NCBI RefSeq assembly: GCF_014697025.1
Contig: NZ_JACJRC010000004.1
Span: forward strand, 1 to 64,000
Reading direction: 5' to 3'
Source of the DNA: Alkalinema sp. FACHB-956
GTDB lineage: Bacteria > Cyanobacteriota > Cyanobacteriia > Leptolyngbyales > Leptolyngbyaceae
Length of the DNA stretch: 64,000 bases
Of this stretch, positions 32,307 through 64,000 are shown piece after piece. The first letter of the stretch is position 1. The number at the start of each line of letters is the position of its first letter. The notes beneath the pieces were generated by a model. The model made no database searches. It worked only from the letters and a program-made list of their open reading frames with translations, and had not been told where the DNA came from. Both the position numbers and the translations under genes were made by a program.

Positions 32307-35300
32307 ATGACCCTCAACCCGGCACCTAATCTGTCTGACTCTGTGCAACTGTCTGACTCTGTGCAATCCACCACTCAGCTTGAATCAGAAACCCCAACCT
32401 TAGATCAGCAGATCCAAGCCTTTACTCGGGTAATTCATAACATTCGAGCAGCCTTAGATCTAGAGACTATATTCAAGACCACAGCCACAGAAGTCCGAAA
32501 ATTATTGGAAGCCGATCGGGTGGCTGTTTTCCAGTTTGACCTGAGCCAGGACTGGGCAGGTTCGTTTGTGTCTGAAGATGTCTCCCCGGTCCATCCCTCC
32601 GCTCTACAGGCATCGGTTTATGATCATTGTTTTGGGGGCAGATTTGCAGAGCAGTATCAACTTGGGCGCATTCAGGCCGTCGCAGATATCTATGAGGCAG
32701 AACTCAGTGAATGTCATGTTCAGATCTTAGAACAGTTTCAGGTTCGCGCCAATTTGGTTATCCCGCTCCTCCAGGACACAAAGCTTTGGGGACTACTGTG
32801 TGTGCATCAATGCCAAGGGCCGCGAATTTGGAGCCAGCGAGAAATTGAGTTCGTTCGTCAAATTGCCCAGCATTTTGATATTGCATTAAAACAAGTTGCT
32901 GATGTACAACAATTGCAATATCAATTACAGCAACAAAAGGCACTCACCCGCGTCATCACCCGAATTCGAGAATCGCTGAATCTAGAAACCATCTTTCAAC
33001 GAACAGTCACGGAAGTTCAACAACTGCTAAAAGCCGATCGCGTAGCCATTTTCCAGTTCGATCGGCTACAGGATTGGGCCGGTAAATTTGTATCCGAAGA
33101 TGTGAACGATGCCTATCCATCTGCCCTCGAACAACAAGTCTATGATCATTGCTTTGGAGAACAGTTCTCCCATTTCTACCAGCAGGGACGAGTGGGAGCG
33201 ATCCACGACATTTATCAGCAAGATTTACAAGATTGTCATGTTGCCATCCTAGAAAAATTTGCTGTCCGATCCAATCTAGTTGCCCCAATTTTACAAGGGA
33301 AAGAATTATGGGGATTACTATGCATCCATCAATGCAGTTCACCTAGAAATTGGCTGCCCTCGGAAATTGAATTTGCTAGTCAGTTGGGAGAACAGTTAGG
33401 GGTTGCGCTGCAACAGAACGAACACCTCCAACACATGCAAGAACAGGCAACGCAGTTGGCGCAAGCAGAAATGCAAGCGAAGGCGGCAGAACGTCAAAAA
33501 ATGCTGACCCAAACCTTCGATCGCATTCGTCAATCCTTGGATCTAGCAACCATCTTTCAAACGACTACCGCTGAAGTACGATCGCTCTTAAGTGCAGAAC
33601 GGGTAGCGATTTTTCGATTTAATCCAGATTGGAGTGGGGATTTTGTGGCCGAGTCGGTTGCCCCCGGTTGGTTGCCTTTGGTTGGCGTCCTACCGTCCAT
33701 TCAGGATACCCACTTGCAAGAAACCCAAGGAGGGCGGTATCGCCACAATGAAACGTTAGCCGTGGATGACATCTATACCGCAGGCCATCAACCCTGTCAC
33801 GTTGCGCTGCTGGAAGAATTTGAAGCAAAGGCGTATGTAGTTGCTCCCGTCTTCCAAGGGTCAGAGTTATGGGGATTGCTAGCAGCCTATCAGAATTCCA
33901 GCGCTCGTCAATGGCAGGCCGATGAAGTAGATCTGTTGACACAAATCGGCTCACAACTCAGTATGGCCCTACAGCAGACAGAACATGTCCGCCAACTGCA
34001 GGCGCAAGCCATGCAAATTGCCAAAGCTTCAGAACGCCAAGCTGCCCTTGCAACTACGATCGCTCGCATCCGCAAATCCCTAGACATTGAATCGATTTTT
34101 GAAACAACCACATTGGAAGTGCGGCAACTCTTGGGGGTTGAGCGGGTAGCGATTTATCGGTTTTATGCCGGGGGAGGCGGTGACTTTGTTGCAGATTCGA
34201 TCGTCAGTGATTGGCAACCCATGCCCCCAAAAAATCCCATTTCGCTAGATCATGATTTTTTAAAGACCACTAAACGGGGTAAATATCCACGTCACGAGAT
34301 GTTTGTCACCATTTCCCAAGGGGAAACCCTCTGGGGCTTATTAGTTGCCTATCAAAACTCCCAACCCCGCTATTGGGAAGATGAGGAAGTCAAACTGTTA
34401 TCCCAAGTGGCAGATCAATTAGGAGTCGCTCTGCAACAAGCAGAACTCTTAGAACACACGCAGCAGCAAACCGAAAAGCTCAATCAAGCCCTAAAAGATC
34501 TTAAGGAATCCCAAGGCCAGCTGATTCAAGGGGAAAAGATGGCCAGTCTTGGACAATTGATTGCAGGCATTGCCCATGAGATTAATAACCCTATCAATTT
34601 CATCTATGGGAACCTCCATCACGTAAATATCTATACCCAAGATCTCTTTAAAGTGATTGAAGCCTATCAATCAGCAATATCCCAGCCCCAGGAACAGATC
34701 GAACAACTCTTGGAATCCTTGGACTATCCATTTCTCTGCAAAGATTTACCCCAGACCCTGACTTCAATGGACGTTGGGGTGCAACGCATTCGAGATTTAG
34801 TAGTCTCGCTACGGAACTTCTCGCGATTAGATCAGACAGCAATTGTCCCAGCAAATCTGCACGATGGGCTTGACAGCACTCTTTTAATCTTGCAGCATCG
34901 CATCAAACCCCAAGTCGACAAACGACCTGAAATTCAGATTATGCGCCACTATGGTGAGGTACCGCTAGTGGAATGTTATCCAGCACAGGTCAATCAAGTG
35001 TTCATGAATGTTTTAAGCAATGCGATCGATGCGATCGATGACGCCCATCAGCAATTTCCCCAACGTAATCCCTACATCAAAATCCACACCGTGACCCTAG
35101 CCAACCAAGTGGTTCGGGTCACCATCAGCAATAGTGGACCCGCGATTGACCCATCGGTCATTCCTTCCATGTTCGATCCCTTCTTCACCACCAAAGACAT
35201 TGGCAAAGGAACGGGGTTGGGTTTATCCATTAGCTATCAGATCATTGTTGAAAAACATGGCGGGAAGATGGGATGCTTTGTCAATGACAATGAAGAAACC

Positions 35301-35354
35301 ACGCTTTGGGTTGAGCTGCCGACGACAGGGCTACACTCAACAGGACTGCACTGA
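32307..35354 (+). CDS. Four-GAF histidine kinase with cyanobacteriochrome-type bilin sites
   Basis: A 1015-residue soluble sensor kinase. Four GAF domains lie in tandem, at about residues 40-200, 215-375, 395-560 and 575-710, then a coiled-coil linker, a HisKA segment (MASLGQLIAGIAHEINNP, phospho-acceptor His 757) and a HATPase_c domain (NQVFMNVLSNAIDAI; FFTTKDIGKGTGLGLSIS). GAF1 has DHCF (Cys 108) and the canonical ECH (Cys 136); GAF2 has DHCF (Cys 282) and DCH (Cys 310); in both the Cys spacing is 28, the DXCF cyanobacteriochrome arrangement. GAF3 has only the canonical PCH (Cys 497) with DTHLQETQGGRY, as in red/green types. GAF4 lacks the segment that carries the Cys and is probably blind. 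No receiver domain or partner regulator adjoins it. Confidence 0.9.
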   Translation: MTLNPAPNLSDSVQLSDSVQSTTQLESETPTLDQQIQAFTRVIHNIRAALDLETIFKTTATEVRKLLEADRVAVFQFDLSQDWAGSFVSEDVSPVHPSALQASVYDHCFGGRFAEQYQLGRIQAVADIYEAELSECHVQILEQFQVRANLVIPLLQDTKLWGLLCVHQCQGPRIWSQREIEFVRQIAQHFDIALKQVADVQQLQYQLQQQKALTRVITRIRESLNLETIFQRTVTEVQQLLKADRVAIFQFDRLQDWAGKFVSEDVNDAYPSALEQQVYDHCFGEQFSHFYQQGRVGAIHDIYQQDLQDCHVAILEKFAVRSNLVAPILQGKELWGLLCIHQCSSPRNWLPSEIEFASQLGEQLGVALQQNEHLQHMQEQATQLAQAEMQAKAAERQKMLTQTFDRIRQSLDLATIFQTTTAEVRSLLSAERVAIFRFNPDWSGDFVAESVAPGWLPLVGVLPSIQDTHLQETQGGRYRHNETLAVDDIYTAGHQPCHVALLEEFEAKAYVVAPVFQGSELWGLLAAYQNSSARQWQADEVDLLTQIGSQLSMALQQTEHVRQLQAQAMQIAKASERQAALATTIARIRKSLDIESIFETTTLEVRQLLGVERVAIYRFYAGGGGDFVADSIVSDWQPMPPKNPISLDHDFLKTTKRGKYPRHEMFVTISQGETLWGLLVAYQNSQPRYWEDEEVKLLSQVADQLGVALQQAELLEHTQQQTEKLNQALKDLKESQGQLIQGEKMASLGQLIAGIAHEINNPINFIYGNLHHVNIYTQDLFKVIEAYQSAISQPQEQIEQLLESLDYPFLCKDLPQTLTSMDVGVQRIRDLVVSLRNFSRLDQTAIVPANLHDGLDSTLLILQHRIKPQVDKRPEIQIMRHYGEVPLVECYPAQVNQVFMNVLSNAIDAIDDAHQQFPQRNPYIKIHTVTLANQVVRVTISNSGPAIDPSVIPSMFDPFFTTKDIGKGTGLGLSISYQIIVEKHGGKMGCFVNDNEETTLWVELPTTGLHSTGLH

Positions 35355-35381: not shown

Positions 35382-37796
35382 CTATTGATTCCAGCTTGAT
35401 TCAGCCACTGAAGGTCGGAGCAGGAGGCGTTTTTCCATGCGGGCGATCGCGCGCCACGTTGTCCCCAAGGCATCGGGATTAATCGACACCCCTTGAATGC
35501 CGTGGGCAATCGCGGTTTCCAATAGCATCTCATCTGGGTGGGGTGAATGCAGGCAGAGGATAGCGGGAATTTGTTTTTGATTCGTGACTTGCAAGAGATC
35601 GGTAATCACCTTCAGCATGGCTGGATGATGCAGCGGATAAAACTGATTAAGATAGGCATCATCCCGATCGATGGCAAAGAGGAGTTGATGTAAGTCCCCC
35701 GTCCCAATCATGACCCCTTGAACTCCCGCATCAATCAATGCATCCAACGCAAACAGGATCGCAGGAACCTCCGCCATGATCCACAATTCCACATGGGGTA
35801 ACTGGAGTAAATCGGTTGCCCGAATCCGTTGGTAACAGGCTCGAAATTCCTCCACAGTTCGGACAAAGGGCAGCACCAATCTAAACGGCCCAGAGGACTG
35901 CCGACAGACTTGTTCGATCGCTCGCAGTTCCAACTCAAACCAATCCGGGAAAATCTGATAGCCCAGGGTACCGTGGGCCGTGAAGATCGAATCGTGCAGG
36001 CCACTGCGATGATCTAGGGTGCGATAAAACAGCGGACGATCGCCAACCGCTTGGGTGAAGGCCGTTAAGCGATCGACAATGAGCTGGTGCAATGCCGACA
36101 GATCTGCTGGAGCCATTAAACTTGGTAACGCAGCATCCCGCAGCCACGACGCCAACATTAATTCCGATCGCACTAAGCCAATCCCATCAATTGGGAGCGA
36201 TCGCAATGCCTCAACCCCATCCACTTGACTCAGGCTGACCAATAACTGAGTGGCGGTGACCGGATAACGGAGGGGATGGAGGGCCCGCTCGTCCGCGATC
36301 GTAGTCTGGGGCAACGATCGATCAACCCCCTCAAAATCCTCTGGGGACTCCACTTGATACACCTGGTGGTTATCAATGCAGAGCCAATCCCCCGTCCGAA
36401 ACATTTGACTCGCTTGGGGCACATTCACCACGATCGGAATCCCCAGTTCCCGCGCCAAAATCGCCCCATGGCTGGTCAGACTACCTTCCTCAGTGACAAA
36501 GGCGATCGCATGGTTGAGCTGAGGCACCCAGTTGGGTTGCAACTTCGCCGTCACAATAATCCTTCCTGGAGGAATATCTGCTGGCAACCCATCCTGGGAA
36601 ATAACCACCGCTGGCCCTCGACAGCGTTGTTGTCCAGTGGTTGAGCCCGCCAGTTTGACAGGCGCGGCACCGAGGGAGCGATCAGACTGGGCTTGAGGAT
36701 CCACTAGGGAATCCAGTCGTTGTCCGAGGGTCGGCGCTTCCCTGGAACCTGCCATCGGAGACAAGGCACAGAACGGGAAATCCGGCGCAATGCCATCGGA
36801 CACCAAATTCAGGCCAGGACGCACATCCATAACCCAGAGGCGATCGGGCTGGGCCGCACCCTGGGCAGTCGCGCCCCTTTCCCAGAGCACATCAACCCGT
36901 AAATGAGTTCCAACATCCTGTTGCAACCGCAGTCCAAGGTCGATCGTGCTTTGCAGTTGACTCAGGGTCAAGGCCCACGTCTCTCGATCAACACTGGGAC
37001 AGCGGAGCAGTTGCCGAGTCGCCAGATCGATGGTGAATTCTTCGACCACCCCATCCAGCAGCGGATCAAGGGTCAGATCCCGGAGCAGGAGTAAGCCTTG
37101 GCCCTCACTGAGGTTCAAGGTTGCATAGGTCGCGATCGGGGGTAAGGCTTGCACGACAACGGACAGCGGGATCTCGTTCAAGGCATCGGTTTGCAATTGC
37201 CAGTAGGCTAGATTTCTGGCTCGAGCCACTTCCGCCCACACCTCTTTGAGCGATCGCAGGAAGCTCAACGGGCGACGATCGTACTGCGTCACCTTGGGCA
37301 GTAGGCAATCTTCTTCAGCTTGGGCCAGGGCCGCGCTGGGGCGTGTGATGGAACTGCGCAACCAGAGCCACTGGCCATCCCAGGAGTCCAGGGCAATGTG
37401 CTCCGATCCCCAGGGGGAAGCGGTTTGGAGGGTTGATCGTCCGATCGCCTGTTGGGCTAAGGCATCCACTGCCGTCCACAGTTCTGTGACCCAGGGATCT
37501 GTCAAGGAGACCTTGAGAATTTGTTGGCGACAATGTTGGGCCATGGACTGTAGTCGCTTGGGATCAGCGCTATTGCCTGAGATCCCGATCGGGGGGAGAT
37601 CTAGATCCGCTAGAACCGCCTGAAAAACGTGCCTGGGAATGACGAAGCCGGACAGAATCGGATAGCCTCGCTGCTGTAGGTCGTGCAACTGCCAGGCCCG
37701 ATCGCCCACAAAGACTTGATCGTTGAGTGCAAGTTGATCCAACCAATAGAATGCTTTAGCCACGGGCAGAAGCTCAAAAAGGACAACGACAGGCAA
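35382..37796 (-). CDS. PEP synthase/PPDK-like protein with degenerate ATP-binding half
   Basis: An 804-residue protein related to phosphoenolpyruvate synthase and pyruvate phosphate dikinase. The N-terminal region recalls the PPDK nucleotide domain (LQQRGYPILSGFVIPRHVF; LWLRSSITRPSAAL) but lacks the usual Gly-Gly-Lys-Gly start and is shortened. The phosphohistidine swivel domain is intact: VTEEGSLTSHGAILARELG, His present. The C-terminal PEP-binding barrel has GIGLVRSELMLASW, FYRTLDHRSG, ELWIMAEVPAILFALDALI, MIGTGDLHQLLFAIDRD and a final ILCLHSPHPDE in place of the usual CGQ/CGE motif. It could be a divergent enzyme or a regulatory relative; activity is uncertain. It starts at 37796 near a divergent comF gene. 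Confidence 0.75.
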   Translation of the reverse strand: MPVVVLFELLPVAKAFYWLDQLALNDQVFVGDRAWQLHDLQQRGYPILSGFVIPRHVFQAVLADLDLPPIGISGNSADPKRLQSMAQHCRQQILKVSLTDPWVTELWTAVDALAQQAIGRSTLQTASPWGSEHIALDSWDGQWLWLRSSITRPSAALAQAEEDCLLPKVTQYDRRPLSFLRSLKEVWAEVARARNLAYWQLQTDALNEIPLSVVVQALPPIATYATLNLSEGQGLLLLRDLTLDPLLDGVVEEFTIDLATRQLLRCPSVDRETWALTLSQLQSTIDLGLRLQQDVGTHLRVDVLWERGATAQGAAQPDRLWVMDVRPGLNLVSDGIAPDFPFCALSPMAGSREAPTLGQRLDSLVDPQAQSDRSLGAAPVKLAGSTTGQQRCRGPAVVISQDGLPADIPPGRIIVTAKLQPNWVPQLNHAIAFVTEEGSLTSHGAILARELGIPIVVNVPQASQMFRTGDWLCIDNHQVYQVESPEDFEGVDRSLPQTTIADERALHPLRYPVTATQLLVSLSQVDGVEALRSLPIDGIGLVRSELMLASWLRDAALPSLMAPADLSALHQLIVDRLTAFTQAVGDRPLFYRTLDHRSGLHDSIFTAHGTLGYQIFPDWFELELRAIEQVCRQSSGPFRLVLPFVRTVEEFRACYQRIRATDLLQLPHVELWIMAEVPAILFALDALIDAGVQGVMIGTGDLHQLLFAIDRDDAYLNQFYPLHHPAMLKVITDLLQVTNQKQIPAILCLHSPHPDEMLLETAIAHGIQGVSINPDALGTTWRAIARMEKRLLLRPSVAESSWNQ

Positions 37797-63270: not shown

Positions 63271-64000
63271 ATGCATTTTGATTCCATCCCACAGAAGCCT
63301 CCCCCCATTGCAGTGTTAATCATCGATGATTCAGATACAGACGGTCTCACGTATCTGGGATACCTGCAAACTGAACTCAATCATACCTATGACATCACCC
63401 AAGCCCCCACATTGCACGCAGGAATTCAACTGTGGAAATCCCGGCAGTTTGATCTCGCTTTGTTAAATCTACAACTACCGGATGGCGATGGAATAGACTT
63501 TTTACAATACTTATATTCAACTAAAATCAATGGTTTAACTAATCATAAACTCCCTGTGATTGTCTTGATCCGTGCAGGCAATGAACGACAAGCCGCAAAG
63601 GCCATGCAACTCGGTGCGATCGATTACCTGATCAAGGAAGAACTGACCGAAAGTGCATTCCAGAAAAGTATTCTGAGCACGATCGAATATCAAAAACTGG
63701 CTCAGCAATTGCTGAAATCGCAACAACAACAGCAACTGCTCACAGAAATTTCCCTACAAATTCGCCAATCTTTAGATCTCTCGCAAATTCTCCAGGCCAC
63801 TGTAGATGGCCTGCGGCAACTGCTGGGGTGCGATCGGGCCGTGATCTATCAATTCCACGCAGATTGGAGTGGAAGTATTGCAGTCGAGTCAGTAGAACAA
63901 CTGGAACTCACCATTTTTCAGCAGGAAATTTTTGATCCTTGCCTCTCGACAAAATGGCACGAGCCCTATCGTCAGGGCAGGGTGAGTTTTGTGCACGATC
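63271..64000 (+). CDS. Response-regulator/GAF photoreceptor protein (partial, runs off the edge)
   Basis: Open from ATG at 63271 to the right edge. Residues 13-135 form a receiver domain (PIAVLIIDDSDTDGLTYLGY; FDLALLNLQLPDGDGIDF; RQAAKAMQLGAIDYLIKEE). The phospho-acceptor position is Asn 66, while the DD pair and the Lys before EE are kept, so it is probably not phosphorylated normally. After a coiled coil (residues 145-160, Gln-rich) a GAF domain starts (LTEISLQIRQSLDLSQILQA, GCDRAVIYQFHADWSGSI, then EIFDPCLSTKWHEPYRQGR), with Cys 224 in a DPCL motif like the DXCF cyanobacteriochrome site. The remaining GAF and any output domain lie beyond the window. Confidence 0.85.
   Translation, partial: MHFDSIPQKPPPIAVLIIDDSDTDGLTYLGYLQTELNHTYDITQAPTLHAGIQLWKSRQFDLALLNLQLPDGDGIDFLQYLYSTKINGLTNHKLPVIVLIRAGNERQAAKAMQLGAIDYLIKEELTESAFQKSILSTIEYQKLAQQLLKSQQQQQLLTEISLQIRQSLDLSQILQATVDGLRQLLGCDRAVIYQFHADWSGSIAVESVEQLELTIFQQEIFDPCLSTKWHEPYRQGRVSFVHD

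Follow-up and report, generated by a model that had tools for sequence, protein, structure and literature searches.

The kinase gene and its genomic setting

A gene at positions 32307–35354 on the forward strand of the window (the whole stretch of 64,000 nucleotides analysed here) encodes a histidine kinase of 1015 residues in which, according to its translation and Pfam, four GAF domains precede a HisKA and a HATPase domain. A Pfam scan of the protein matched GAF along four stretches with a summed score of 283 bits, and it returned a HATPase_c domain (67 bits; 34983–35324, forward strand like all features of this gene) and a HisKA/DHp domain at 34548–34715, the last scoring 23.7 bits and so lying under its own cut-off of 26.9. 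The H-box of this domain, HEINNP, contains His757 (34575–34577), and the presence of this histidine together with the HATPase domain identifies the protein by sequence as a HisKA-type kinase. A scan against NCBIfam matched 45 families, and among the 25 matches listed none passed its cut-off.

The host genome (6.16 Mb, cyanobacterial judging from its genes) holds 67 GAF matches, and three bilin-reductase and two haem-oxygenase matches point to a supply of bilin. Two bilin-reductase genes adjoin one another at G000:C11:10165-11582, in an arrangement that we take to be that of pebA-pebB; the strain may therefore make phycoerythrobilin. No response regulator was found among 10 ORFs near the kinase gene, which is thus an orphan as far as seen. 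Promoter and terminator scans gave matches no more numerous than those in shuffled sequences, and none of 60 plasmid records contained a place spanning 80% of the kinase protein. A search for related loci yielded 67 (L001–L067), most of which match the kinase half alone.

Convergent with the kinase gene, a PEP-utilising enzyme is encoded on the reverse strand at window positions 35382–37796, its stop lying 27 bases beyond the kinase stop; mobile and PEP-binding Pfam domains were listed for it, and an N-terminal nucleotide-binding domain was not found at E 1e-4. Another strong match to GAF, of 87.9 bits, occupies window positions 63775–64000 and continues to C4:64218, in an open frame of 1172 codons that crosses the window end.

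The three upstream GAF domains

Profile and alignments place the first two GAF domains in the DXCF cyanobacteriochrome type. GAF1 (32457–32888) carries Cys108 (32628–32630) within a DHCF motif and the canonical Cys136 (32712–32714), while GAF2 (32979–33410) carries the DHCF cysteine Cys282 (33150–33152) and the canonical Cys310 (33234–33236). The first-pass annotation, made from the letters of the sequence, had given these residue numbers, together with Cys497 of GAF3 and the ORF coordinates, and the translation bears them out exactly, as it does the spacing of 28 residues between the two cysteines of each domain. The DXCF assignment by comparison with TePixJ was equally sound: the alignments put both cysteines of GAF1 and of GAF2 at TePixJ positions, and the alignment to known cyanobacteriochromes that had been proposed as a check finds the DXCF and canonical cysteines of GAF1 in register with TePixJ, with no gap between the two cysteines when compared to 3vv4 (DPCF...ECHL). 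This structure is also among the matches of GAF2, and in an alignment of 155 GAFs the cysteines of GAF1 and GAF2 share the same two columns. Since cysteines occupy both columns in 48 of the 125 ordinary GAFs of this set, the dual-Cys pattern characterises the family and has not arisen by chance.

The TePixJ GAF (3vv4, 4glq) therefore resembles GAF1 and GAF2 in the register of its DXCF and canonical cysteines (for GAF2 by way of the shared columns), whereas TePixJ itself is recorded as a methyl-accepting chemotaxis protein and the window protein has a kinase as its output. The best solved sequence relative of both domains is PPHK, a dual-sensor histidine kinase of Leptolyngbya sp. JSC-1 (PDB 6oap), whose aligned GAF is full length and has a tyrosine in place of the DXCF cysteine (DQYF), unlike the DHCF of GAF1. 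Passages of PMC8584932 and PMC11480761 describe PPHK as a phosphorylation-responsive photosensitive kinase that integrates light with phosphorylation as its second input. By analogy with known families, GAF1 and GAF2 would bind phycocyanobilin through their two cysteines, probably isomerise it to phycoviolobilin and then alternate between states of blue type and green/teal type.

GAF3 (33540–33971) has, as the first reading of the sequence held, one canonical cysteine, Cys497 (33795–33797), which both translation and alignment confirm; in the 155-GAF alignment it falls in the canonical column, and the DXCF cysteine is absent. The domain matches NpR6012g4 (6bhn, E 4.2e-65) and AnPixJg2 (3w2z, E 5.5e-59), with which it shares DTHLQETQGGRY and the canonical cysteine. 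Both of these proteins, however, have the conserved tryptophan of the WXDXXL motif, where the equivalent in GAF3 is IQDTHL, with Ile465 (33699–33701) in the tryptophan's place. According to PMC11284453, this tryptophan contacts the bilin by stacking on ring D and by a bond to ring A, and it is diagnostic for typical XRG domains. Its replacement by Ile465, on which the first-pass annotation did not remark, makes the original label of 'red/green-type' insecure, and that label is kept here in part: the relationship to the red/green NpR6012g4 and AnPixJg2 stands, and the diagnostic residue is absent.

GAF3 may instead be an orange- or yellow-absorbing variant, or belong to the NpR3784-type lineage, in which the tryptophan position is taken by an aliphatic residue, and we consider the chances of this to be evenly poised. 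Its other two key positions are Thr468 and Ala526, and PMC11284453 reports that XRG domains in which cysteine replaces the tryptophan and the other two residues are Thr/Ala absorb yellow or orange light in the dark, with peaks at 574 and 604 nm; the same source gives valine in place of the tryptophan for the NpR3784 lineage, where GAF3 has isoleucine. In the proteins that share the shortened GAF described below, tryptophan occupies this column in none of the 25 canonical-Cys non-DXCF GAFs (three of them gapped there, and insert-Cys GAFs included). Against such a variant, overall likeness is highest to the red/green NpR6012g4 and AnPixJg2, and typical members of the NpR3784 lineage are themselves red/green. 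A loss of tryptophan peculiar to these proteins is not supported, as only three of the 16 canonical-Cys non-DXCF GAFs elsewhere in the set, some of them phytochrome-like, retain it. Known families suggest that GAF3 would bind bilin through Cys497 and have two states, one orange-to-red and the other green, between which it switches.

Two DXCF-type domains and one red/green-related domain, as classed by sequence, are accordingly combined in one kinase, as the first-pass annotation had proposed. Mixing of spectral types in one protein is already known from NpR1597 of Nostoc punctiforme, for which passages of PMC5240096 describe a teal DXCF domain (g1) and an insert-Cys domain (g2), and passages of PMC6121604 a red/orange domain (g4). 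The window protein resembles NpR1597, as portrayed there, in having several spectral types, and differs from it in its two DXCF GAFs, the absence of an insert-Cys GAF and the short GAF in last place. The protein adds a new receptor to a class already known, and its interest lies in the short GAF.

A conserved short GAF and its distribution

GAF4 (34083–34433), characterised by profiles, tree and an AF2 model, scores 51 bits to PF01590 and is a GAF by fold. As noted at first sight of the sequence, it has lost the Cys-bearing segment: alignments reveal no residues between RHE (662–664; 34290–34298) and MFVTISQGETLWG, beginning MFV, the missing piece being that which bears the Cys helix, and the same gap is found in six relatives of a first comparison. 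An FVADS signature starts at 34185, and a C-terminal helix (residues 692–726; 34380–34484) extends towards the kinase in the AF2 model. AF2 models of GAF4 and GAF3 were built from alignments of the same 10 rows. In that of GAF4 (mean pLDDT 84), the N-terminal helix is joined by another helix, four strands and the long C-terminal helix, with residues 633–663 devoid of secondary structure and pLDDT below 50 at 646–656. GAF3 (pLDDT 92) has an additional helix (468–479), a short strand and a helix (496–504) that carries Cys497; it is these two helices and the strand, the Cys helix included, that GAF4 lacks between its core strands. The model thus retains the sheet and the signalling helices, and the bilin lobe is gone. 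In a fold search with GAF4, cyanobacteriochrome and phytochrome GAFs ranked first, PPHK (6oap) being among the best matches, and the comparison with 6xhh_B gave a VIA Z of 15.3 over 131 residues at an rmsd of 2.3; many phytochrome GAFs attain a high Z, so VIA singles out no one relative.

We then searched 388 sampled genomes of the class with a profile of 64 positions spanning the gap junction, which detected short GAFs in at least 30 proteins of at least 29 genomes. Their sites score 104–137 bits and start at profile position 2–6, and the next row scores 93 bits; the later rows listed start at position 10 or beyond, save for two genomes. One of these, G115, contains an ordinary GAF with cysteine (profile 7–64, 79.7 bits) and was rejected; the copy of the other, G229, is truncated at a contig end and was left out of the count. 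The 30 sites span six family codes (f1, 7; f11, 2; f13, 8; f24, 1; f26, 1; f32, 10), and deeper sampling found the short GAF in seven of 42 genomes of the strain's own order, nine of 63 of family f13 and at least 103 of 192 of family f32, where even the genome with the least significant top match reaches an E-value of 5e-33, far below the values of ordinary GAFs in the search of the class. No short GAF was found by profile search among ORFs of at least 200 codons at L001–L067.

All 30 short GAFs display R[HN]ExFVxIxxGxx[LF]WGLL and FVADS, the latter occurring in none of the 125 ordinary GAFs, and the canonical Cys column on which bilin binding depends is missing in all 30; one to three cysteines lie elsewhere in the core in six of the 30, and none in GAF4 of the window. 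A further sample of 20 loci (21 ORFs) was picked to cover a range of ORF lengths and scores, and its counts therefore do not measure prevalence; in three cases (L155, L156 and L167) the strict regular expression missed what the profile matched. In trees, all 30 short GAFs stand on one side of a branch when 133 columns without the gap region are used (FastTree 0.98; IQ-TREE quick SH-aLRT 98), as do all 51 once the gap columns are removed (SH-aLRT 99); since the profile spans the gap, it would miss short GAFs of other sequence, and both the single clade and the gap in 30 of 30 describe the profile's own matches.

The nearest relatives of the short GAFs are the full-length GAFs that follow a short GAF in some proteins (SH-aLRT 85 for the two together in 66 rows, 73 with fewer rows). 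This relationship suggests, with moderate support from the sequences, that a kinase-proximal GAF was duplicated before one copy lost the segment. In L113, L117, L122 and L124 the domains follow the order DXCF, insert-Cys, short GAF and further GAF, and L150 has the same order with a last GAF that keeps its cysteine; since this order fits NpR1597, NpR1597g3 may by analogy be a short GAF as well. The short GAF was not described in the literature searched, which comprised open-licence papers.

The short GAF is also the best conserved part of these proteins. Over 435 pairs of the 30 proteins, the short GAF has a mean identity of 0.645, compared with 0.526 in the kinase and 0.502 in the upstream GAFs, whose divergence is inflated by the comparison of GAFs of different types and orders; the short GAF exceeds the kinase in 386 pairs and the upstream GAFs in 421. 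Because the proteins had been chosen by likeness across the gap, a control was run on the 60 N-terminal residues ending in FVADS, which lie outside the profile. In the 385 pairs used (50 were dropped, a part being too short or not found), this stretch had a mean identity of 0.711, which fell to 0.634 in the H-box helix and 0.556 in the ATPase core, the stretch surpassing the helix in 283 pairs and the core in 355. The dN/dS of the short GAF is 0.04–0.18; in 16 close pairs it is lower than that of the kinase every time and lower than that of the upstream GAFs in 15, although some proteins recur among these pairs and 14 pairs come from f32.

These data bear on the first-pass description of GAF4 as degenerate. 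A bilin sensor that lost its Cys segment and is now drifting could be recognised in the company that the short GAF keeps, as Cys-less full-length GAFs are found nearby, the CH motif is absent from eight of the 11 newly added GAFs that follow a short GAF (L150–L168) and kept in three, and no GAF of L126–L128 has a canonical cysteine. However, an identical gap, one clade over six family codes, the highest conservation and a low dN/dS make such drift very improbable, and plain decay is rejected by the conservation and the single clade. 'Degenerate' is thus a misnomer for a domain whose copies form one clade (SH-aLRT 99) with identity above that of the kinase, also outside the search profile. As judged by these sequences, GAF4 is a strongly conserved shortened module common to many cyanobacteria.

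Coupling to the kinase and proposed role

In the window protein, 82 residues separate the LWGLL anchor of GAF4 (residue 675) from His757 of the H-box. The short GAF directly precedes the kinase in 26 of the 30 proteins, with this spacing at 82 in 23, 81 in two and 111 in one, and in eight of the 21 further ORFs chosen for variety (82 in seven, 81 in one). It is not always the final coupler, as another GAF intervenes in the remaining four of the 30, a Cys-less one in each case, and in 11 of the 21, and we rejected the idea of an invariable last position before the kinase. Among the comparison GAF kinases, the equivalent spacing is also 82 in six of 10.

With the lobe that covers the ligand pocket lost entirely, GAF4 presumably can neither bind bilin nor sense light, and relaying is the likeliest role for a domain that has lost its pocket and kept the parts in the signal path. 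Its sequence predicts that GAF4 probably transmits light signals and does not sense them. The suggestion of the fourth GAF as a relay, a guess when first put, is now favoured by the comparative data. On balance we consider it probable that the protein is a cyanobacteriochrome histidine kinase in which two DXCF GAFs and a red/green-related one are accompanied by a short GAF4 kept for the purpose of relaying to the kinase. Light would alter bilin geometry in GAF1–GAF3 and move the helices that join the domains; GAF4 would take up the helical strain from the tandem sensors and feed it to the kinase in a fixed register, so that the short GAF, as a fixed relay, would sum the upstream states and hand them on. 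Coiled-coil linkers of sensor kinases, as passages of PMC6798134 set out, have discrete lengths, are a known route of transmission and are thought to integrate tandem sensors.

The main rival is that the short GAF serves chiefly in dimerisation or partner binding, for instance in docking a response regulator or another kinase, and does not transmit light-induced strain. The model places the conserved FVADS and ExFV motifs in strands, which could offer docking sites to partners; no response regulator was seen among the 10 nearby ORFs, PPHK takes phosphorylation as a second input in passages of PMC8584932 and PMC11480761, and the strong conservation of the short GAF would fit such a role as well. 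GAF4 nevertheless begins and ends with helices that are aligned with the adjacent domains, and the spacing from short GAF to H-box is that of ordinary photosensory GAFs, which leads us to rate a docking or dimerisation role as unlikely, though deserving of serious attention.

GAF domains commonly bind small molecules, and the loop at 633–663 could become ordered upon binding. Sensing of another small ligand by the short GAF is a doubtful prospect, however, with the pocket-closing lobe gone in 30 of 30 and loop sequences that vary strongly.

Beyond this protein, it is an evenly balanced proposition that the short GAFs make up a subfamily so far undescribed, which would have arisen once, traded its ligand lobe for pure signal integration, originated beside the kinase-proximal red/green-type GAF and later been combined with many sets of colour sensors, being kept even where every canonical bilin cysteine was lost. 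For tandem colour sensors that feed one kinase output, a conserved GAF without a pocket would be a ready-made adaptor between the two, and the question of how signals are combined can be tested by swapping or deleting one domain of ~120 residues. The short GAF could also act as a neutral spacer in multi-colour optogenetic kinases, and not all Cys-less GAFs in such receptors should be dismissed as decayed.

At least one dual-Cys GAF is kept in 23 of the 30 short-GAF proteins. That every upstream GAF senses light does not hold for the relatives, as L126, L127 and L128 have no canonical bilin cysteine in any GAF, yet their short GAF and kinase are conserved; they are possibly blind descendants with another input. 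The phospho-acceptor histidine of the H-box has been lost in L154 (ORF at +9038), L155 and L156, being replaced by tyrosine in one of the seven further ORFs with a spacing of 82 and by serine in two of the 21. For L154, a histidine-bearing sister gene within 5 kb suggests a pseudokinase–kinase pair.
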